Shown: piece after piece, positions 31,259 through 41,990 of the stretch
Layout of the letters: each line of letters begins with the position of its first letter
How positions within the stretch are numbered: the stretch's first letter is position 1
Origin: Ignavibacteriota bacterium
Lineage (GTDB): Bacteria > Bacteroidota > Ignavibacteria > UBA10030 > UBA6906
Length of the DNA: 41,990 nt
Direction: 5' to 3'
Assembly: GCA_003158475.1 (NCBI GenBank)
Contig: PMJR01000077.1
Location: 5,185-47,174 of the forward strand
Made by a program: the position numbers and the translations under genes
The notes under the pieces: generated by a model
Told to the model about the DNA's origin: nothing
The model's input: the letters and a program-made list of their open reading frames with translations, nothing else
The model's database searches: none

Positions 31259-31365
31259 CGGAACTGCTGAAATACCGTACGCCATTGATTACGAATTCAA
31301 CGATTTGCAACACGCACACGCTGTAAATTCCAAGCAAAAACTGTTCATCGGGGGAAATAGTTTCT

Positions 31366-31382
31366 TAGGCACAACTATTGCT
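31366..31382 (+). promoter_or_regulatory. Sigma-54-type promoter of the regulator-hdr-mvh operon
   Basis: TAGGCACAACTATTGCT matches the sigma-54 consensus YTGGCACGRNNNTTGCW at all but two informative positions, with GG (31368-31369) and GC (31380-31381) exactly 12 bp apart. Transcription would start near 31393, about 25 nt before the regulator ATG. No competing sigma-70 pair was seen for this gene. Confidence 0.55.
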
Positions 31383-31417
31383 ACACTACCAGTACTATTG
31401 GCCCCCCATCAAATCGG

Positions 31418-31858
31418 ATGGTGCGTACGTTGCCTTCACCGGCGGAATCGTTAATCGGCGTCCTCACGGAAACCAGGAAGCTCGAGAAGCGCCTCGAGTC
31501 TCTCACGCGGCTTTCTTCAGACGCCCTCCTTGTCCTCCTGCTGCTTCACACAAGGAAACCTGCGAGCGTGAAGGAGCTGACCGGGCATCTGGGCGTCAGT
31601 GACAGCCGCACTTCCAAGCTTCTCTGCCTCCTGGAAGACAGGGGGTTCATCACGCGCCGCATCAGTCTCTCGGACCGGCGGGTGGAACAAATCTCGCTCA
31701 CTCCCCGGGGTGACCGGATCGTCGAGATAGCACTCAGCGCGCCTGCTTCACCGCACGAGGAAGCACCCCCCAGCTGTCCCCTGAACATCGTGCCGTCGAT
31801 CAACGTGCTGGGGATCCTCATCGGGTGCGCTGCTCTCTATTTGAAAATGACCTGCTGA
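31418..31858 (+). CDS. MarR-like winged-helix regulator with hydrophobic Cys-containing C-terminus
   Basis: A 146-residue regulator. Residues about 34-100 are a MarR-type winged helix: helices around VKELTGHLGVSDSRTSKLLC and the wing RISLSDRRVEQISLTPRG. Instead of the long C-terminal dimerisation helices of MarR proteins, residues 110-146 are a Pro-rich linker and a hydrophobic stretch (about 124-142) that could cross or dip into the membrane. Cysteines lie at 70, 120, 137 and 146, the last being the final residue. This suggests redox or membrane sensing, which is inference. The start has no Shine-Dalgarno but sits 25 nt downstream of the predicted sigma-54 start site. hdrC begins 52 bp after its stop. 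Confidence 0.7.
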   Translation: MVRTLPSPAESLIGVLTETRKLEKRLESLTRLSSDALLVLLLLHTRKPASVKELTGHLGVSDSRTSKLLCLLEDRGFITRRISLSDRRVEQISLTPRGDRIVEIALSAPASPHEEAPPSCPLNIVPSINVLGILIGCAALYLKMTC

Positions 31859-31910
31859 ACGCGCGTGTGACGCTTTCCCCGTTCAGCATTACTGCAGGAG
31901 GATGACAGGT

Positions 31911-32561
31911 ATGAAGCTTCCAACCCCACCAGCCCTTCGGACTACCGTTACGAATTCTCCACCCCGGATGAAGACCGTCGTCAGGAGACTCAAGTTCGAG
32001 TCGGAGCTCGACCTCTCCTTCGGCGAACATGTGGCCGAGCGGGCGTACGGACAGAAGCTTCTCAGTTGCATCCAGTGCGGGACCTGCAGTGCAACATGTC
32101 CCCTCAGCCATTATATGGACTACACGCCCCGCAAGATCATCGCCATGACACGCGAGGGTTTCAAGGACGAAGTCCTGAACAGCCTGACAATATGGCTCTG
32201 CGCGTCGTGCTATGCGTGCACCGTCCAGTGCCCACGACAGATCCATATCACCGACGTCATGTACGCGCTCAAGCGCGAGGCAATCGCGCGGGGATTCTAT
32301 CCGGCAAGAAACCCCATCCCGGTCCTTGCGAAGGCGTTCTACGAAAGGGTGAGGCACGACGGCCGGAACACCGAGAGCAGGCTTCTCATCACACTCTATC
32401 TCCGCACCAATCCATTCAAAATGCTGAAGGAAGCGATGCTCGGGCTCCATCTTTTCCTCACGGGACGCCTCTCACTCAAGAAAGAGAAAATAAAGGGCAT
32501 GAAAGAACTCCGGAAGATGATCGATTCCGTCGAGCCGCGAAAGGAGGCTGTCCCCTTATGA
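31911..32561 (+). CDS. hdrC: Heterodisulfide reductase subunit C-like iron-sulfur protein
   Basis: A 216-residue soluble protein with two [4Fe-4S] motifs: C53-x2-C56-x2-C59-x3-C63 (CIQCGTCSATCP) and C97-x2-C100-x2-C103-x3-C107. In Hdr complexes HdrC passes electrons from HdrA to HdrB. ATG 31911 is chosen over 31902 because AGGAGG lies 9 nt before it and directly abuts the other. Its stop overlaps the hdrB start (ATGA). The gene order hdrC-B-A with mvhDGA following is that of a single functional module. Confidence 0.93.
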   Translation: MKLPTPPALRTTVTNSPPRMKTVVRRLKFESELDLSFGEHVAERAYGQKLLSCIQCGTCSATCPLSHYMDYTPRKIIAMTREGFKDEVLNSLTIWLCASCYACTVQCPRQIHITDVMYALKREAIARGFYPARNPIPVLAKAFYERVRHDGRNTESRLLITLYLRTNPFKMLKEAMLGLHLFLTGRLSLKKEKIKGMKELRKMIDSVEPRKEAVPL

Positions 32562-33460
32562 GCTACCTGTATTTCCCCGGATGCTCACTGCGCAGCACCG
32601 GCCGACCGTACGAAGAGTCCATACTCGCCGTCTTCAGGAAGCTGAACATCCCTCTGAAGGAACTCGACGACTGGAACTGTTGCGGTGCCACCGCATACGT
32701 TTCCATCGACGAGAACAGGGCGTTCACGCTTGCCGCACGCAACCTCGCGATCGCGGAACGGATGCAAAACAACGGGAACGCGGGGGAGGACCTGATGGCC
32801 CCCTGCAGCGCCTGCTATCTGGTTCTGGAAAAGACCCAGCACTACATGAAAACGGACGAAGGCGTCAACACGGAGGTCACCGCAGCACTCCGCCGCGGGG
32901 GCTTCGACTATAAGGGGACGACGAAAGTGCGCCACCCGCTCGATATCCTCGTGAATGACATCGGGATCGAGCGGATCGCCAAAGCGGTTGTCAGGCCGAT
33001 GAAGGGGATGAAGGTCGCCTGCTACTACGGTTGCCAGGTCGTCAGGCCTTTCGAGACATTCGACCACGCGGCGTATCCGACCACGATGGACCGTCTTGTC
33101 ACCGCACTGGGCGCCACGGCGATCGACTGGCCGATGAAGGCGCGCTGCTGCGGCGGGAGCCTCACCGGGACAATCCAGGAGGCGGGGCTCCGTCTCAACC
33201 GGGCCCTCCTCAAGGAAGCCGAAAAGCGGGGGGCGAACATCATACTGACATGCTGCCCCCTCTGCCAGCACAACCTGGAGTGCTACCAGAAGCGTATCAA
33301 CCGGCGCTTCGGCGAATCGATACATATACCGGTCGCCTATTTCACGCAGTTCATCGGGCTTGCGCTCGGCATCCCCCGGAAGGAACTCGGCATACAGCGC
33401 CTTTTCATCCCGCTGAAGTTCGCAGATCCGCCCACGAAGGAGGCACACGCCCATGCCTGA
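32558..33460 (+). CDS. hdrB: Heterodisulfide reductase subunit B-like (two CCG domains)
   Basis: A 300-residue catalytic subunit. Both cysteine-rich CCG domains are complete: C9, C41-C42, C83 and C86 in the first (WNCCGA, APCSACY), and C155 or C159, C197-C198, C232 and C236 in the second (ARCCGG, CCPLC). In archaeal HdrB these bind two non-cubane [4Fe-4S] clusters that reduce CoM-S-S-CoB. This bacterium should have no such substrate, so the physiological disulfide or other acceptor is unknown. AGGAGG lies upstream of the start. It overlaps hdrC by 4 and hdrA by 8 bp. Confidence 0.93.
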   Translation: MSYLYFPGCSLRSTGRPYEESILAVFRKLNIPLKELDDWNCCGATAYVSIDENRAFTLAARNLAIAERMQNNGNAGEDLMAPCSACYLVLEKTQHYMKTDEGVNTEVTAALRRGGFDYKGTTKVRHPLDILVNDIGIERIAKAVVRPMKGMKVACYYGCQVVRPFETFDHAAYPTTMDRLVTALGATAIDWPMKARCCGGSLTGTIQEAGLRLNRALLKEAEKRGANIILTCCPLCQHNLECYQKRINRRFGESIHIPVAYFTQFIGLALGIPRKELGIQRLFIPLKFADPPTKEAHAHA

Positions 33461-35492
33461 GACCAACGGCCACGACGCCCCCCGCGTCGGATTCTACGTC
33501 TGCCACTGCGGGCACAATATCGCTGGTATCGTCGACGTCGCGGAGGTCGCCCGTTTCGCCGGGACGCTGCCGAATGTGATCGTCGCGCGCGACTACAAGT
33601 ACATGTGTTCCGACCCCGGCCAGGAACTGATAATCACCGACATCCGCGAGCACAGGCTCAACCGGATCGTTGTCGCATCCTGCTCTCCCCTCCTCCATGA
33701 GCACACGTTCCGTGTGGCCACCGAGAAAGGAGGGCTCAACCCGTTTTATTTCCAGATGGTGAACATCCGGGAGGACGTCTCCTGGGTGACCGAAAACCAC
33801 GACGCGGCAACGCACAAGGCGCTCGACCTCGTCCGGGCCGCCGTCCGGCGCGTGGCACACCACCGCTCGCTCGCGACGAAGCACGTACGCATCCACCCCG
33901 ACGTGCTTGTCGTCGGGGCGGGGATCTCGGGAATCCATGCAGCGCTCACGCTGGCCAACGCCGGGAAGAAGGTCACGCTGGTGGAGAGAGAGCCCACGAT
34001 CGGCGGGCACATGGCGATGTTCGACAAGACGTTCCCGACGCTCGACTGTGCTGCCTGCATCCTGACGCCCAAGATGTCCGCGGTGAAGAACCACCCGAAC
34101 ATCACCCTCTGGTCATACTCCGAGGTCTCGGAGGTCAGCGGGTACGTCGGCAGCTACACTGTGAAAGTGAAACGGAAGCCCCGCTTCGTTTCCGAGGAGC
34201 TCTGCGTCGGCTGCATGGAATGCATCGACGCGTGTGTGTACAAGGAGGGGAAGACGCCGGATGAATTCAACCAGGGCCTGAGCAAGCGGAAGCCCGTGTA
34301 CATCCCCTTCCCCCAGGCCACCCCGCAGGTGGTGCTCATCGATCCCGACACGTGCATCGAGTTCAAGTCGGGACGCTGCAAGAAAACCTGTGTGGAAAAA
34401 TGCGACCGGAACGCGATCGATTTCAAGCAAAAGGAGGAGATCAAGGAGATCCAGGTCGGCACGATCATACTCGCCACAGGCTTCAAGACATTCGACCCGA
34501 AGCGCATCCCGTATTACGGCTACGGAAAATACCCGAACGTGTACAGCTCCCTTGAGGTCGAGCGGCTTGTGAACGCCTCCGGCCCGACCGGCGGCGACCT
34601 TGTGCTGCGCGACGGGCGCCATCCCAAGACCGTCGGGATCATTCACTGCGTCGGGTCGCGTGACAGGAACACCAACCGCTGGTGTTCCCGGACCTGCTGC
34701 ATGTATTCGCTCAAACTCGCCCACCTCCTGAAGGAACACTCGGAGGCGGAGGTGTATAACTTCTATATCGACATCAGGGCGGCGGGAAAGGCGTACGAGG
34801 AGTTCTACGACAAGCTGCTCGAGGAGAACATCCACTTCATACGGGGCCGGGTGGCCGAAGTGACCGACTGGAGCGCGCGACCGGAGGAGGAGGGGAAGAT
34901 GATCATCCGCGTCGAGGACACGCTCATCGGCGTCGTCCGCCGCGTCCCTGTGGACATGGTCGTCCTCGCCGTCGGCATGGAGCCGCAGGCCGACTCCCAA
35001 GACGTCCGCCGCATGTTCAACATCTCCTGCTCGACGGAAGGCTTCTTCCTTGAGCGCCATCCGAAGCTCGCCCCGGTGGACACGTTCACCGACGGCATAT
35101 TCATCGCCGGGGCATGCCAGGGACCGAAGGACATCCCCGACAGCGTCGCGCAGGCGGGGGCCGCGGCAGCCCAGGCGCTCTCGCTGATCGACGCCGGGGA
35201 AGTGGAGCTTGAGCCGAACACCGCCTACGTCGTTGAGGAATCCTGTTCCGGCTGCAAGTCGTGCCTCAACATCTGTCCCTACACCGCCATCACCCGGGAC
35301 GAAACCAGGCAAAAGGCTTTCATCAACGAGGCGCTCTGCAAGGGATGCGGCACCTGCGTGGCCACCTGTCCCTCGGGCGCCATCAGGCAGAATCTGTTCG
35401 AGGACGAGCAGATATTCAGCGAGATCGAAGGGCTGCTTCAGGAAAAGGAATCCGTTCTGACAGGAGGTGGAGCATGGCGAGCACCGGCATGA
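33453..35492 (+). CDS. hdrA: Heterodisulfide reductase subunit A-like flavoprotein
   Basis: A 679-residue electron-bifurcating flavoprotein. After an N-terminal Cys-containing domain comes the FAD Rossmann motif G155-A-G157-I-S-G160. Ferredoxin-type motifs follow: CVGCMECIDACVY at 251, a second Cys set CIEFKSGRCKKTCVEKC, and two C-terminal clusters beginning at C598 (CSGCKSCLNICP) and C629 (CKGCGTCVATCP). The WCSRTCCMYS segment also matches HdrA. In methanogens HdrA splits electrons from H2 (through MvhD) between ferredoxin and HdrBC. AAGGAGG precedes the start. The protein is not fused to MvhD. Confidence 0.95.
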   Translation: MPETNGHDAPRVGFYVCHCGHNIAGIVDVAEVARFAGTLPNVIVARDYKYMCSDPGQELIITDIREHRLNRIVVASCSPLLHEHTFRVATEKGGLNPFYFQMVNIREDVSWVTENHDAATHKALDLVRAAVRRVAHHRSLATKHVRIHPDVLVVGAGISGIHAALTLANAGKKVTLVEREPTIGGHMAMFDKTFPTLDCAACILTPKMSAVKNHPNITLWSYSEVSEVSGYVGSYTVKVKRKPRFVSEELCVGCMECIDACVYKEGKTPDEFNQGLSKRKPVYIPFPQATPQVVLIDPDTCIEFKSGRCKKTCVEKCDRNAIDFKQKEEIKEIQVGTIILATGFKTFDPKRIPYYGYGKYPNVYSSLEVERLVNASGPTGGDLVLRDGRHPKTVGIIHCVGSRDRNTNRWCSRTCCMYSLKLAHLLKEHSEAEVYNFYIDIRAAGKAYEEFYDKLLEENIHFIRGRVAEVTDWSARPEEEGKMIIRVEDTLIGVVRRVPVDMVVLAVGMEPQADSQDVRRMFNISCSTEGFFLERHPKLAPVDTFTDGIFIAGACQGPKDIPDSVAQAGAAAAQALSLIDAGEVELEPNTAYVVEESCSGCKSCLNICPYTAITRDETRQKAFINEALCKGCGTCVATCPSGAIRQNLFEDEQIFSEIEGLLQEKESVLTGGGAWRAPA

Positions 35493-35986
35493 AACAGGGT
35501 ACCAACGGCTGGGAGCCCCGCATCGTTGCATTCTTCTGCAACTGGTGCACATACACAGCGGCTGACCTGGCCGGAGTCTCACGGCTGCGGCACGCACCCA
35601 ACGCGCGCGTCATCCGCGTGATGTGCTCCGGAAGGCTCGACCCGCAATTCGTCCTGGACGCGTTCGCCCGGGGCGCCGACGGCGTCCTCGTCGGCGGCTG
35701 CCATCCCGGAGACTGCCACTACATGGAAGGGAACTACAAAGCACTCCGACGGGTCCGGCTCCTCCAGAGGATGATGAAGGATATGGGGATCCATGAAGAT
35801 CGCTTCCGGTTGGAATGGATTTCGGCCTCCGAGGGGGAGAAAGTCAAAACCACAATCAACACCATGACCGAGCGGGTCCGCGCGCTCGGCCCGCTGGGCC
35901 TCCCGGAGAGGTTCGCCGAGTGGGACGAAGAGATGGACGGGCTCGCTCACGCGATCGCAGCACAGGAGGAGGCAGTCCATGCCTGA
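35474..35986 (+). CDS. mvhD: Methyl-viologen-reducing hydrogenase delta subunit-like
   Basis: A 170-residue [2Fe-2S] protein that links the hydrogenase to HdrA. Cysteines C22, C25 (FFCNWCTY), C51, C76 and C81 (GGCHPGDCHY) are all in family positions. It overlaps hdrA by 19 bp and mvhG by 8, and AGGAGGT precedes the start. Its presence between hdrA and the hydrogenase subunits is the best single sign that the two halves form one complex. Confidence 0.94.
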   Translation: MASTGMKQGTNGWEPRIVAFFCNWCTYTAADLAGVSRLRHAPNARVIRVMCSGRLDPQFVLDAFARGADGVLVGGCHPGDCHYMEGNYKALRRVRLLQRMMKDMGIHEDRFRLEWISASEGEKVKTTINTMTERVRALGPLGLPERFAEWDEEMDGLAHAIAAQEEAVHA

Positions 35987-36953
35987 GAAACCGAAAGTCG
36001 CATTTTACTGGTGTGCATCCTGCGGCGGATGCGAAGAGTCCGTCGTCGACCTCGCCGAGGAGATACTCGGCGTGGTGAACGCCGTGGACATCGTCTTCTG
36101 GCCCGTCGCAATGGACTTCAAGAAACAGGACGTGGAAGCGATCAGTGACGGCGGGATACTCGTTTCATTGATCAACGGGGCGGTCCGCACGTCGGAACAG
36201 GAAGAGATGGCAAAGCTGCTCAGGAGAAAGAGCGCGCTGGTCGTCGCCTACGGGTCCTGCGCACACATGGGAGGGATCCCCGGGCTGGCAAACCAGTTTG
36301 ACCGCGAACAGATACTCCGCTACGTGTATGAAGAGTCCCCGTCGACGATCAACGAACTGCACACGCGTCCGCAGACGGCGAGTCCCGAGGGGGGGCACAC
36401 GCTGACGCTCCCGGAGTTCCGCTCCATGGTCAGGACGCTCGACCAGGTTATCCCCGTCGATTACTATCTTCCCGGCTGTCCCCCGGTCCCGCGAATGCTG
36501 AAGGCTGCGCTCGACACGCTCCTTTCAGGGAATCTCCCGCCGAAGGGGACGGTGCTCGGGCCCGACACCGCCATGTGCGAGGAGTGCCCGCGCAAGGAGA
36601 GCAAACCGGCCGATCTCGCATACACGGCATTCCGCCGGCCGCACGAGGTGATCATCCAGCCGGAGACCTGTCTCCTCGCCCAGGGGGTGATCTGCATGGG
36701 CCCGGCAACGCGCGGGGGCTGTGGAGCACAATGCGTCACGGGGAACATGCCCTGCAGCGGATGCTTCGGCCCGACTTCCCGGGTCATGGACCAGGGAGCG
36801 AAAATACTCTCGGCGATAGCTTCATCCCTCAGTGCGAAAGAGACGGAGGGAATCGACAGGACACTCGCAACGATCCCGGACCCCGTCGGGACGTTTTACC
36901 GGTACGGGCTCCCCGGCTCGCTGCTGCGCAGGAAGATCGCAGATCACAATTGA
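35979..36953 (+). CDS. mvhG: [NiFe] hydrogenase small subunit, Mvh type (group 3)
   Basis: A 324-residue cytoplasmic small subunit with no Tat signal. The proximal-cluster cysteines begin at WCASCGGCEES (C12, C15, C18), continue with GSCAHMGG and PGCPP, and a C-terminal ferredoxin-like Cys set (GGCGAQCVTG, PCSGCFGP) should hold further [4Fe-4S] clusters. This fits group 3c F420-non-reducing hydrogenases, whose small subunit lacks the export signal and anchor of uptake enzymes. It overlaps mvhD by 8 bp and is followed by the large subunit after 13 bp. Confidence 0.93.
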   Translation: MPEKPKVAFYWCASCGGCEESVVDLAEEILGVVNAVDIVFWPVAMDFKKQDVEAISDGGILVSLINGAVRTSEQEEMAKLLRRKSALVVAYGSCAHMGGIPGLANQFDREQILRYVYEESPSTINELHTRPQTASPEGGHTLTLPEFRSMVRTLDQVIPVDYYLPGCPPVPRMLKAALDTLLSGNLPPKGTVLGPDTAMCEECPRKESKPADLAYTAFRRPHEVIIQPETCLLAQGVICMGPATRGGCGAQCVTGNMPCSGCFGPTSRVMDQGAKILSAIASSLSAKETEGIDRTLATIPDPVGTFYRYGLPGSLLRRKIADHN

Positions 36954-36966
36954 CGAAGGGAATGCC

Positions 36967-38463
36967 ATGGAGAGCGGCACACAGGAAGCGCACGCGGGAA
37001 CGGTTACCCGGAGGGTCACGATCGACCCGATCACACGGCTCGAAGGGCACGGTAAGATCGACATATTCCTTGACGCACGGGGTGAAGTGGAGAAGGCCTA
37101 CTACCAGATCCCGGAGCTGAGGGGGTTCGAGGTGTTCTCCCTCGGACGGCCCGCCGAGGAAATGCCGCAGATCACCAGCAGGATCTGCGGAGTCTGTCCC
37201 ACGGCGCACCACATGGCCGCGACCAAGGCGCTCGACGACCTGTACCACGTGGATCCCCCTCCGACCGCAAAGAGGATACGGGAGCTCATCTACAACGCGT
37301 TCATGCTCGAGGATCACGCGCTTCACGTCTACATCCTGGGGGGACCTGATTTCATCGTCGGCCCCGACGCACCCAAAGCGATGCGGAACGTGGTGGGGGT
37401 GATCGACAGGGTCGGCATCGACACGGGGAAGAAGGTGATCGGCATGCGCAAGCGGCTCCGCGAGCTGATCGCGCACCTCGGCGGAAAAGTCATCCATCCC
37501 GTTTTCGGCCTCCCGGGAGGAGTGGCAAAGGGGGTCTCCCCGGACGAGCTCCCTGCGCTGCGACAACTGGCGGACGACGCTCTGGAGTTTGCCCGCTTCA
37601 CACTCGGCGTCTTCAGAACCATCGTGCTTGCCAACGAGAAGTACGTCTCTCTCATCACATCGGAGGATTTCACGCACAGGACCTATTCCATGGGCCTCGT
37701 CGACGCGAACAACAGGGTCAATTTCTACGACGGAATGCTCCGCGTCACCGACCCGTCCGGGAAGGAATTTACGAAATTTGCTTCGGCGAAGTACCTCGAC
37801 GTCATCGCAGAGCATGTCGAGCCATGGAGCTACGTGAAATTCTGCTACCTGAAACAGGTCGGCTGGAAGGGATTTAGCGACGGCCCCGAGAGCGGCATCT
37901 ACTCGGTCGCACCGCTGGCCCGCCTCAATGCTTCCGACGGGATGGCAACGCCCGAGGCACAGAAGGCCTATGAAGAGCTCGTTGCGACGCTCGGGGGGAA
38001 ACCTGTGCATCATACGCTGGCGAACCACTGGGCCCGTGTTGTCGAGATGATCCAGGCGGCTGAAAGGCTGAAGGAGCTTGCGAACGACCCGCTCCTCACG
38101 GGGAAAGAGATCCGGACGCTCCCCACGGAAAAGCCAACTGTCGGCGTGGGGGTGGTGGAAGCGCCGCGCGGTACGCTCATTCATCATTACGAGACGGACG
38201 AGCGCGGGCTCATCACAAAAGCGAACCTGATCGTGGCAACGCAGAACAACGCAGGAAGGATCTCGATGAGCGTGGACAAAGCTGCCAAGGGGCTGATCCA
38301 CGGGGGGATCGTGAACGACGGGCTGCTGAATAAAATCGAGATGGCCTTCCGTGCCTATGATCCCTGCAACGCCTGTTCGACGCACTCGCTCCCCGGTCAG
38401 ATGCCGCTCACGCTGAGGCTCCGGAACGCCTCCGGGGAGACACTCCGGGTGATCCAGCGATGA
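36967..38463 (+). CDS. mvhA: [NiFe] hydrogenase large subunit, Mvh type (group 3)
   Basis: A 498-residue catalytic subunit with the Ni-Fe ligands in RICGVC (C74, C77) and DPCNAC (C467, C470). After the conserved H473 a 25-residue C-terminal tail remains; in this family it is removed by a dedicated protease during maturation, and such a protease is encoded next. AAGGGA precedes ATG 36967; a longer frame upstream would run inside mvhG. Its stop overlaps the protease start (ATGA). Confidence 0.95.
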   Translation: MESGTQEAHAGTVTRRVTIDPITRLEGHGKIDIFLDARGEVEKAYYQIPELRGFEVFSLGRPAEEMPQITSRICGVCPTAHHMAATKALDDLYHVDPPPTAKRIRELIYNAFMLEDHALHVYILGGPDFIVGPDAPKAMRNVVGVIDRVGIDTGKKVIGMRKRLRELIAHLGGKVIHPVFGLPGGVAKGVSPDELPALRQLADDALEFARFTLGVFRTIVLANEKYVSLITSEDFTHRTYSMGLVDANNRVNFYDGMLRVTDPSGKEFTKFASAKYLDVIAEHVEPWSYVKFCYLKQVGWKGFSDGPESGIYSVAPLARLNASDGMATPEAQKAYEELVATLGGKPVHHTLANHWARVVEMIQAAERLKELANDPLLTGKEIRTLPTEKPTVGVGVVEAPRGTLIHHYETDERGLITKANLIVATQNNAGRISMSVDKAAKGLIHGGIVNDGLLNKIEMAFRAYDPCNACSTHSLPGQMPLTLRLRNASGETLRVIQR

Positions 38464-38954
38464 CGGACACGCCATCCAGGAAGCCGCAGGACCTCCTTCT
38501 GGCCCTCGGCAACCCGCTCATGGGGGACGACGGGGTCGCCCTCCTCGCCGCCCGGGCTCTCCGCCGGCGGTACAGGGAGGAAATCGACATCAACGAGTCA
38601 CCGGTCGCCGGTTTCGCGCTTCTCGACCTCCTCACCGGATACAACCGGGCACTGATCATCGACGCATCCGCGACGGGGGACGCTCCTCCGGGGACTATAC
38701 GGGAATTCACGCGGGAGGATTTCACCGCGGACATCTCCGCTTCCCCCCACTATGCGGGGCTCCCTGATGTCCTTGCCCTTGGCGGACAACTCGGTGTACC
38801 CCTCCCCGGGGAAATCCGGATACTCGGCATGGAAATCGAGGCCCCCGGCGTGATCCGCGAGGGGCTTGGTCCCGCGGCGGCCGGATCGCTCCCGGAATTC
38901 CTCCGGCGGGCAGGAGAAATACTCGACACCTGGATCGCCCCATCCCCACTGTGA
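38460..38954 (+). CDS. Hydrogenase maturation protease (HyaD/HybD/HycI family)
   Basis: A 164-residue endopeptidase that removes the C-terminal tail of a [NiFe] hydrogenase large subunit once Ni is in place. Family motifs: LALGNPLMGDDGV near the N-terminus, LIIDAS in the middle and SPHYAGLPD, corresponding to the three Ni-sensing residues (E/D, D, H). Coupled by ATGA to the large subunit at 36967, which is its likely substrate. Confidence 0.92.
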   Translation: MTDTPSRKPQDLLLALGNPLMGDDGVALLAARALRRRYREEIDINESPVAGFALLDLLTGYNRALIIDASATGDAPPGTIREFTREDFTADISASPHYAGLPDVLALGGQLGVPLPGEIRILGMEIEAPGVIREGLGPAAAGSLPEFLRRAGEILDTWIAPSPL

Positions 38955-39060: not shown

Positions 39061-40035
39061 GTGCAGTCCGTCCATTCCATATCGCTCATCACGCAGAGCG
39101 ATCCGATGCGCACGATCATCTCACGCATCGACGCCATCTCTGCATCGGATTCCTCCGTCCTCCTGATCGGCGAGACCGGTGTCGGAAAAGAGCTCGTCGC
39201 CGAGTACATACACCACACGAGCGTCCGTTCCTCCAACCCTCTCATCAAGGTCGGCCTGGCGGCACTCCCCCCGGACCTCCTGGAGACCGAACTGTTCGGG
39301 CACGCCAAGGGGGCATACACGAGCGCGCTCAGCGACAAGAAGGGGCTCTTTGAGCTCGCGCATACGGGGAGCATATTTCTTGACGACATCGATGATTTCC
39401 CCCTCCCGCTTCAGTCGAAGCTCCTTCGGGTACTCGAATCGCGGGAATTGATGCGTGTCGGCGGAACAGTCCCCATTCCGGTCGATGTCCGGCTTATTAC
39501 CGCGTCAAAAGTTGATCTGAAGGAACTGGTGAACCGGGGGTTATTCCGTGCCGACCTGTATTACAGGATCAACGTGGTGCCTGTCGTCATCCCACCCCTC
39601 CGGCAGAGGGCCGTGGACATTCCGCTCCTTGTGAATCATTTTCTCCGCCGCTTCTCGAGTGAGGAGATCCCCGGAATTGACGATGATGCAATGAAAGCGC
39701 TGGTCCGCTATTCCTGGCCGGGGAATATCCGGGAGCTGCGAAACACCATTCAGAGAATCACGGTCTTTGTCAGGGGGAAGATTGCTCTCAGCGACCTCCC
39801 CCTCGAGATACGCGAAGAAAACCCCCTCGAATTGATGATCAAGGCCTGTAACAGGTGCTTCTCCGAGGACCGGATGTCATTCGATGACGTGGTCGCGTGT
39901 CTGGAAACGAATCTGATACGGCGCGCGCTCAAGGAATCGATGGGGAACCGGACGCATGCCGCCAAGCTTCTGGGGATGAACCTCTCGACGCTCCGCGACA
40001 AATTGAAGAAGTATAATCTCTCCGACCAGGGCTAG
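39061..40035 (+). CDS. NtrC-family AAA+ regulator without sensory domain, altered key motifs
   Basis: A 324-residue protein consisting of a bacterial-enhancer-binding AAA+ domain and a C-terminal Fis helix-turn-helix (296-318, AAKLLGMNLSTLRDKLKKY). There is no receiver, PAS or GAF domain. Walker A is GETGVGKE (37-44) and the arginine-finger region FRADLYYRI (162-170) is normal. Unusual: GAFTGA reads GAYTSA (84-89), Walker B is FLDD with D109 for the usual Glu, the Asn of the NCAAL segment is G65, and sensor I ATN reads ASK. Asn and Glu make up the glutamate switch known from PspF, so both of its halves are changed. The GTG start at 39061 has no clear ribosome-binding site; an ATG at 39106 is the alternative. 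It sits between the hdr-mvh operon and the uptake hydrogenase. Confidence 0.88.
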   Translation: MQSVHSISLITQSDPMRTIISRIDAISASDSSVLLIGETGVGKELVAEYIHHTSVRSSNPLIKVGLAALPPDLLETELFGHAKGAYTSALSDKKGLFELAHTGSIFLDDIDDFPLPLQSKLLRVLESRELMRVGGTVPIPVDVRLITASKVDLKELVNRGLFRADLYYRINVVPVVIPPLRQRAVDIPLLVNHFLRRFSSEEIPGIDDDAMKALVRYSWPGNIRELRNTIQRITVFVRGKIALSDLPLEIREENPLELMIKACNRCFSEDRMSFDDVVACLETNLIRRALKESMGNRTHAAKLLGMNLSTLRDKLKKYNLSDQG

Positions 40036-40071
40036 TTCCCGCCCCCCTTCTGCGGAATCCCGTCTGTGAAT

Positions 40072-40087
40072 CGGCGGAATTTCGCCG
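40072..40087. other. Near-palindrome CGGCGGAATTTCGCCG after the AAA+ regulator
   Basis: A 16-bp sequence with seven complementary pairs and one G-T pair, 36 bp after the regulator stop. It could be a hairpin or a protein-binding site. No T-run follows. Confidence 0.3.
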
Positions 40088-40158
40088 TCACTCCTCCTCC
40101 TCCTGCAGCCAACCCCCGATTTCGACACCCATCGGCGGCTTAACATCTGGCATGGTAA

Positions 40159-40440
40159 ATGAATGCTTTCCGGCGTGCCGTCAAACATTCCGCTATGACT
40201 CCGAAAGTCAACAGCAGCCAGATCCGAGGGAGCGTCATCGAAACATTCGAGATGGGGGGTCGAACAGTCATCCGTCTTGCGATCACCGGCGGCTCCCTCG
40301 ATTTCCTCTCCGAACCCGATACTGCATTCCATCTCGGAGACACACTGTTACTCGATGGAGAATTCCGCCCCTGTTCGGTACGCCCCGCGCTGGACCCGGA
40401 ATACCATCATCCGGTTCCGGGCGCGGACTTCCTCTCCTGA
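40159..40440 (+). CDS. Small hypothetical protein, 93 residues, upstream of uptake hydrogenase
   Basis: Not recognised. The downstream 80 residues are dominated by short beta-type segments (IRGSVIETFEM, TVIRLAITGG, HLGDTLLLDGEF), suggesting a small barrel. The VGD-hydrophobic-hxGF pattern recalls HypC/HupF chaperones or TOBE domains, but the essential N-terminal Cys of HypC is missing, so this is only a resemblance. The start is uncertain: ATG 40159 or 40195, neither with a Shine-Dalgarno. It is followed by hyaA after 90 bp, which fits an accessory role in hydrogenase maturation or control. Confidence 0.5.
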   Translation: MNAFRRAVKHSAMTPKVNSSQIRGSVIETFEMGGRTVIRLAITGGSLDFLSEPDTAFHLGDTLLLDGEFRPCSVRPALDPEYHHPVPGADFLS

Positions 40441-40530: not shown

Positions 40531-41652
40531 ATGGGCGAAACACCTCTCACCATCTGGGAGCACGCGCAACTTCAGGGCTATTCGCGCCGTGACTTCATCA
40601 AGTTTTGCGGTTGGATCGCGGCCGCCACCGGCATACAGTCGACCGGCGTTGCCCAGGTCGTCAAGTCGCTCGACACAAAGCCGCGCCTCCCCGTCGTGTG
40701 GTTCCATTTCCAGGAATGCACCTGCTGCAGCGAGTCGTTCATCCGTTCCTCGCACCCGATCGTCTCGGACATAGTCCTTGACAAGATCTCACTTGACTAC
40801 ACGGAGACTCTCCAGGCCGCGGCGGGGAAACAGGCCGAAGAGGCGCTCCAGGCGACAATGAAAAAATACAAAGGGGAGTACCTGATGCTCGTGGAAGGCT
40901 CCGTCCCGACGGAGGAGGGGGGGATTTACTGCTGCATCGGGGGACGGACCGCGCTGGATATCGTGAAGGAGGCGGCCGGAGGGGCCAAGGCGATCATCGC
41001 ATGGGGAAGCTGCGCATCCAACGGATGCATACAGGCCGCCCGCCCCAACCCCACCGGCGCAACGCCGATCCACAAGATCATCACCGACAAACCCGTCATC
41101 AATGTCCCGGGCTGCCCTCCGATCGCGGAGGTGATGGCCGGGACGATCGTCCACCTCCTCGCGTTCGACCGTATCCCGCAGCTCGACGGTCTCGGGCGCC
41201 CCAAGGCCTTCTACTCCCGGCGCGTCCACGACACGTGCTACCGGAGGCCGAATTATGACGCCGGATTGTTCGTCGATTCATTCGACGACGAGAACGCCAA
41301 GCGGGGATACTGTCTCTACAAGGTCGGCTGCCGCGGCCCCGTGACATACAACTCGTGCGGCGTCATGCGCTGGAACAACGGGGTGAGCTACCCCATACAG
41401 TCGGGGCACGGCTGCATTGGGTGCAGCGAGGCAAATTTCTGGGACAACGGCCCGTTCTACCAGCATCTGGCTTCCTTCCCCGGATTCGGCATCGAGACAA
41501 CCGCAGACAAGGTAGGGGTCGTTCTCGGCGTCGCGACCGCCGCTGGAATTGCCGCCCACGCGGTCTCCACCAATATCAGGAAGCGGAAGCTCATCCAGCA
41601 GGAAATCAAGAGCAGCGAACCGTCCGGTGATTCGAAGAAAGGAGGCGCCTGA
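40531..41652 (+). CDS. hyaA: Tat-exported membrane-anchored [NiFe] hydrogenase small subunit, O2-tolerant type
   Basis: A 373-residue periplasmic uptake hydrogenase small subunit (group 1). A Tat motif SRRDFIK (18-24) is followed by the iron-sulfur region and a C-terminal anchor helix ([19 protein letters not shown]) with a basic tail. The proximal cluster carries the usual cysteines plus both extra ones of O2-tolerant enzymes: ECTCC at C63, C65, C66, where O2-sensitive forms have ECTGC, and C161-ASNG-C166. These allow the [4Fe-3S] cluster that survives oxygen. GGAGG precedes the start. The large subunit follows with a TGATG overlap. A cytochrome b subunit would be expected beyond the window. 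Confidence 0.95.
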
Positions 41653-41990
41653 TGTCCAACCGCATCGTCATCGACCCGATCACGCGCATCGAGGGACACC
41701 TCCGCGTTGAAATAGAAGTACGGGATGGCAAAATCGTCGACGCGTTCAGCTCCGGAACGATGGTCAGGGGGTTCGAGCGGATACTCAAGGGGCGCGACCC
41801 CCGGGACGCCTGGGCCTTCGCGGAAAGGGCCTGCGGTGTCTGCACCACGGTGCACGCCCTCGCGTCCGTACGGACAGTGGAAGATGCGCTGGGGATCACC
41901 GTTCCGCCGAACGCGGAGCTCGTGAGGAACCTCATGTTCTGCGCGCAGTACCTTCAGGACCACGTGGTCCACTTTTACCACCTGCACGCG
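41652..41990 (+). CDS. hyaB: [NiFe] hydrogenase large subunit, group 1, first 113 residues (cut by window)
   Basis: The start of the catalytic subunit paired with the preceding small subunit. It opens [18 protein letters not shown] and contains the first Ni-Fe motif as RACGVC, with Ala for the common Ile. AGGAGG precedes the start, which overlaps the hyaA stop (TGATG). The rest, including the C-terminal DPCxxC motif, is outside the window. Confidence 0.95.

Follow-up and report, generated by a model that had tools for sequence, protein, structure and literature searches.

A conserved clade of receiver-less sigma-54 activators with an altered glutamate switch and invariant linker cysteines beside [NiFe]-hydrogenase operons

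How might a sigma-54 activator work once both halves of its glutamate switch have been replaced? AAA+ proteins are taken to have this switch in common, and most experiments on it have used mutants of model proteins such as PspF. The question is raised by a gene in the window, by which we mean the whole stretch of 41,990 nucleotides from an Ignavibacteriota bacterium that was analyzed here. The gene and the codons of interest are as follows.

39061..40035, + strand: gene for a receiver-less sigma-54 enhancer-binding protein (bEBP), from the ORF call, Pfam and orthologs
39253..39255, + strand: codon 65 (GGC), encoding Gly in place of the switch Asn
39385..39396, + strand: Walker B codons 109-112 (D109, I110, D111, D112), replacing E-x-G-E/D
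39508..39510, + strand: codon 150 (AAA), encoding Lys in place of the sensor I Asn
39847..39900, + strand: codons 263-280, with C263, C266 and C280 (CxxC-x13-C) in the linker, present in 49/49 core members

The protein of 324 residues is read from a GTG start, which is supported because orthologs begin at the same position. Pfam recognizes a Sigma54_activat domain (PF00158, 204.7 bits), an AAA lid and a Fis-type HTH_8 but no N-terminal domain, as the AAA+ domain begins at residue 9. The AAA+ domain and lid occupy approximately residues 9 to 250, the cysteine-bearing linker residues 251 to 280, and the Fis-type helix-turn-helix residues 281 to 318. An AlphaFold model has a mean pLDDT of 90 (56 to 74 in the linker), its nearest folds are FleQ, ZraR and NtrC1, and RpoN is encoded in the same genome. 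By fold, motifs and targets, the protein is a bEBP of clade 6 of the AAA+ proteins. Its Sigma54_activat domain carries a GAFTGA-like L1 loop (GAYTSA) with the invariant Thr (T87, 49/49 clade members), the Walker A Lys (K43) and the arginine fingers of the RxDxxxR motif (R163 and R169) are conserved, and an upstream activating sequence and a -24/-12 promoter are both significant at the target in 33/49 loci. The Glu-Asn pair of the glutamate switch is what the protein lacks, with Asp at 109 in 49/49 and Gly, Ser or Ala at 65.

The original prediction had read G65, D109, K150 and GAYTSA as departures and Walker A and the arginine fingers as normal, and the translation agrees throughout. Walker A is GETGVGKE (residues 37 to 44), G65 lies within VGLAAL, GAYTSA spans residues 84 to 89, Walker B is DDIDD (D108, D109, D111 and D112), sensor I is S149-K150, and the arginine fingers are R163 and R169. 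One further change had been overlooked, G111D, which with D109 turns DEIGE into DDIDD. D109, D111, D112, K150, R163, R169 and T87 are invariant in the 49 core clade sequences, and residue 65 is Gly in 32, Ser in 13 and Ala in 3 (one row is truncated). Among 114 other sigma-54 activators, by comparison, residue 65 is Asn in 102, residue 109 is Glu in 110, and residue 150 is Asn in 92 and His in 13. Fifty-five sequences have both D109 and K150, and each residue is found without the other just once; thus, the proposed coordinated change of interacting residues holds across the clade, and K150 and D111 are likely companions of D109 and of the Gly/Ser/Ala change at residue 65. The L1 loop is spelled variably in the 49 sequences, with Phe or Tyr in 26 and 23 and with Ser, Gly, Asn, His or Thr in 32, 11, 4, 1 and 1, respectively. 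Among the altered motifs, GAYTSA is therefore the least meaningful change and not a fixed mark of the clade. Looking for a clade with all four changes beside hydrogenase genes had been suggested as a check, and such a clade exists for residues 65, 109 and 150 and for the genomic context, though not for the spelling of the loop.

The altered residues could in principle reflect local decay or a sequencing error. Members of the ortholog clade (49 sequences) are 51 to 93% identical to the activator and share the same changes. A search of 60 relatives gave a sharp ortholog group at 56 to 93% identity followed by a fall to approximately 46%, and a profile search within the class gave a gap from approximately 473 to 387 bits, one truncated gene excepted. 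Three further members were found by profile search in another class of the same phylum, and named contigs with members include Ignavibacteriales CG_4_9_14_3 (65%) and Bacteroidetes Glo_2 and Bacteroidales bin10098 (57%). The assembly contains no 16S gene, and among plasmids the best HyaA match is from Parabacteroides. Moreover, dN/dS of the activator gene against three congeneric orthologs was 0.09 to 0.12, and the codons concerned are conserved in four congeneric genomes. The gene is under purifying selection, no homolog with canonical motifs was found among the same-context homologs, and decay or error is ruled out by the 49 orthologs and the dN/dS ratio of about 0.1, to the point that we give it virtually no credence. 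We conclude that the clade is a real, conserved subfamily of sigma-54 activators for hydrogenase-type operons, and we found no description of it in a nonexhaustive search of the literature, so that as far as searched it is previously undescribed.

What the activator might control is suggested by the DNA on either side of its gene.

40053..40062, + strand: enhancer half 1, CGGAATCCCG (palindrome consensus CGGAATTCCG)
40075..40084, + strand: enhancer half 2, CGGAATTTCG, 22 bp from half 1
40148..40163, + strand: -24/-12 sigma-54 promoter, TGGCATGGTAAATGAA, present in four congeneric genomes
40195..40440, + strand: small conserved ORF of 81 aa, likely the first gene of the hydrogenase operon, with homologs in approximately 20 clade loci
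40531..41652, + strand: [NiFe]-hydrogenase small subunit of the hydA/HyaA type (TIGR00391, 486.6 bits; PF14720)
41652..41990, + strand: [NiFe]-hydrogenase large subunit, truncated where the window stops, adjoining hyaA in clade loci
31902..38954, + strand: HdrCBA-MvhDGA heterodisulfide reductase/hydrogenase cluster and maturation protease, upstream of the activator

Directly 3' of the activator stop codon, two CGGAATTCCG palindromes 20 to 22 bp apart recur in tandem across the clade, followed by the -24/-12 promoter, the small ORF and the [NiFe]-hydrogenase operon. Against shuffled sequences, the enhancer pair and the promoter are each significant in 38/49 clade loci. With spacing left unconstrained, the distance from enhancer start to promoter is 82 to 88 bp in 27 of the 33 loci with both elements and approximately 95 to 96 bp, one helical turn more, in 3 (the window, L211 and the second gene of L182). 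The window promoter lies 95 bp past the enhancer start and is conserved in four congeneric genomes, and the window enhancer pair, the second palindrome of which is imperfect, is the best match in its own genome (1 mismatch). Enhancers went undetected in approximately 11/49 members, some of them at contig ends or in divergent arrangements. We considered a wider regulon in the same genome, but matches elsewhere have two mismatches, and the single one that was looked at (L221) falls within a coding region. We note that the same genome encodes two divergent sigma-54-like proteins without a recognizable GAFTGA (L017 and L018).

The -12 element of the window promoter is GA rather than GC in all four congeneric genomes, and 14/36 enhancer-linked promoters in the clade have GA, GT or GG there instead of GC. 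The L1 loop is in contact with promoter DNA at -12/-11 (PMC7175178), and relaxed -12 elements could therefore matter in the clade. The L1-loop residue and the -12 base, however, showed no clear correlation across clade promoters.

Genomic context also ties the clade to hydrogenase. In most clade loci hyaA and hyaB lie 3' of the activator on the same strand, with the hyaA start approximately 1.2 to 1.6 kb from the activator start, and the synteny extends to the named Ignavibacteriales and Bacteroidota contigs. Among 391 class genomes, the clade gene is present in 25/31 with a close HyaA versus 15/360 without (Fisher P of approximately 1e-23, with related genomes counted as independent). Homologs of the small ORF sit between promoter and hyaA in approximately 20 clade loci; the ORF evolves rapidly, is 65 to 85 aa long in relatives and carries the pattern 'GEVVEIFE...HLGD...E'. 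It has no Pfam or family match, and it is possibly a small beta-barrel. HypC was rejected as its identity for want of a family match, and weak matches to sigma-70 profiles look like chance.

Some clade members have other neighbors. Five (L194, L198, L200, L201 and the second copy in L182) precede Hdr-Mvh clusters and have their own enhancer pair and a strong sigma-54 promoter, and six (L195, L196, L176, L177, L186 and L202) precede cytochrome c-like or other respiratory genes, judging from translations. Within the window, control of the upstream HdrCBA-MvhDGA cluster by the activator was rejected, as no enhancer pair was found there and the site at 31367 belongs to a different conserved block. 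That site is a -24/-12-like sequence (AGGCACAACTATTGCT) within 31310-31385, where approximately 45 bp are nearly identical in three congeneric genomes. The block lies upstream of a MarR-like ORF (31418-31858) and hdrC and contains AATAGTT/AACTATT inverted repeats.

Does so altered an AAA+ domain still activate sigma-54? The original prediction had raised, as the alternative to a different ATPase cycle, some function outside classical sigma-54 activation, such as that of a repressor or constitutive activator. Some NtrC-family proteins, such as TyrR and HupR, do act outside sigma-54 control, and the change of both switch halves and of sensor I would suit a repressor or sigma-70-type regulator that has a weakened ATPase and only binds DNA. 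The -24/-12 promoter, however, is conserved and keeps a constant helical phase relative to the enhancer; T87, Walker A and the two arginine fingers do not vary, and the genome supplies RpoN. Enhancer, promoter, spacing, T87 and arginine fingers together point to a working sigma-54 activator, and we consider a repressor quite improbable.

PspF, the model for mutations of the switch, likewise has an AAA+ domain and Fis-type helix-turn-helix without an N-terminal domain. Wild-type PspF differs from the clade in having E108 and N64 and in being regulated by PspA, and the activator does not reach the cutoff of the PspF equivalog TIGR02974 (250.6 versus 443.55 bits) and is not PspF. The laboratory mutants E108D and N64S change the same two positions as in the clade and keep partial activity: on duplex DNA, E108D activates like the wild type despite its lower ATPase activity, and N64S is still able to engage polymerase but favors pre-opened DNA (PMC4132715). 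Thus, the Glu-Asn switch is evidently not strictly required, and the PspF mutants suggest that the cycle in the clade may be slower or regated but functional. On the other hand, N64Q and E108A/Q nearly abolish ATPase activity (PMC3419264), and the combined changes could in principle inactivate the activator. The clade goes beyond the PspF mutants in its further changes, K150 and D111. The different ATPase cycle that had been proposed is a fair inference from coordinated changes found clade-wide.

How the activator might be controlled is a separate matter. A parallel by genomic context is HoxA of Cupriavidus necator, which is also a sigma-54 activator beside [NiFe]-hydrogenase genes, is 37% identical over the AAA+/HTH part, and is switched by HoxJ phosphorylation (PMC10073562). 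Unlike the activator, HoxA has a receiver domain, ENCAAV, DEIGD, an ATH sensor I and GAFTGA, and it lacks the linker cysteines. Direct comparison with HoxA, with the AAA+ domain of the activator beginning at residue 9, rules out a HoxA-type response regulator because the N-terminal receiver is absent.

The earlier claim that the protein lacks any sensory domain is correct for the N-terminal domain but missed three cysteines that likely form a sensor. C263, C266 and C280 are invariant in all 49 core members, in a linker that is otherwise variable, and they coincide exactly with the branch that lacks the N-terminal domain. Longer relatives of receiver-bearing length (L207-L210, L038 and L045) resemble the clade in having Ser at 65, DDVDD and Lys in sensor I but are 449 to 499 aa long, have an N-terminal region and lack the linker cysteines; four of them (L207-L210) also have a standard GAFTGA and are without CGGAATTCCG enhancer palindromes. 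A single origin of D109 with K150 in the clade and these relatives was not rejected (p-AU 0.87); convergent origins were set aside, for although the free tree needs three changes, a single clade has the higher likelihood.

Constitutive activity would be another way to dispense with a receiver. The switch would stay engaged and control would fall to expression of the activator itself or to a partner protein, and indeed PspF E108Q forms constitutive hexamers with a structure that is engaged whatever the nucleotide (PMC4132715). The absence of the N-terminal domain speaks for this reading, but the three cysteines are invariant in a variable linker in exactly the receiver-less branch. That invariance makes a built-in sensor more likely, and we think constitutive activation of the hydrogenase operon unlikely.

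The cysteines likely constitute a redox or metal sensor. In alpha- and betaproteobacterial NifA, the redox or metal site is proposed to be formed by cysteines where the AAA+ domain joins the linker, whereas in Gd-NifA a different pair of linker cysteines gave DNA binding no redox dependence (PMC10590331). Oxygen-responsive NifA from those groups has four cysteines, partly inside the AAA+ domain, and a GAF domain, whereas the activator has three, all in the linker as CxxC-x13-C, and no GAF domain. With a score below the NifA cutoff as well (295.7 versus 528.85 bits), it is not an oxygen-sensing NifA. Three cysteines are also one fewer than a classic four-Cys metal site. Perhaps they bind structural zinc that merely orders the linker, with the signal arriving by another route. 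In the AlphaFold model, C263 and C266 sit close to where one helix ends and C280 lies in the helix that follows, an arrangement that a zinc hairpin would fit, but confidence in that stretch is low (pLDDT of approximately 56 to 74). Because the clade targets anaerobic or redox enzymes, we favor a redox input and regard purely structural zinc as rather doubtful.

We propose that the protein is a sigma-54 activator that acts locally and is dedicated to the adjoining hydrogenase operon, with activity set by its cysteines, and we give this reading, drawn from sequence, a probability of roughly 0.68. Dimers would bind the two tandem CGGAATTCCG palindromes just past their own stop codon, as conserved sites and geometry suggest, and by the established bEBP mechanism the AAA+ ring would contact sigma-54 RNA polymerase approximately 85 to 95 bp downstream via GAYTSA. 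ATP would be hydrolyzed through D109 (with D111) and the sensor I Lys instead of a Glu-Asn switch, in a cycle that, by analogy with PspF E108D and N64S, may be slower or differently gated yet still working. C263, C266 and C280 may set activity by binding a metal or Fe-S center or by acting as thiols, and, with no receiver domain present, it is they that would report redox or oxygen state. That the clade is a new bEBP subfamily in which Asp/Asp/Lys replaces the Glu-Asn switch and a three-Cys redox or metal center in the linker gates the ATPase is a more specific proposal, with the odds somewhat against it, and we offer it tentatively.

Judging from conservation and target promoters, this is a natural lineage in which both halves of the switch have changed, with a companion change in sensor I, and function has been kept. 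Its enhancers and promoters can be read directly from DNA, a signature that allows regulons to be predicted. The clade, the longer relatives with the same switch and canonical bEBPs provide a ready comparison for what the switch does and a natural test case for how ATP-driven activators work and sense redox state. The findings also suggest a way in which poorly studied bacteria may couple their hydrogenase operons to redox state with no need of a two-component system. Ultimately, if the proposal is true, the clade would represent a sigma-54 activator that senses redox state as a one-component system and turns on hydrogen and heterodisulfide metabolism.
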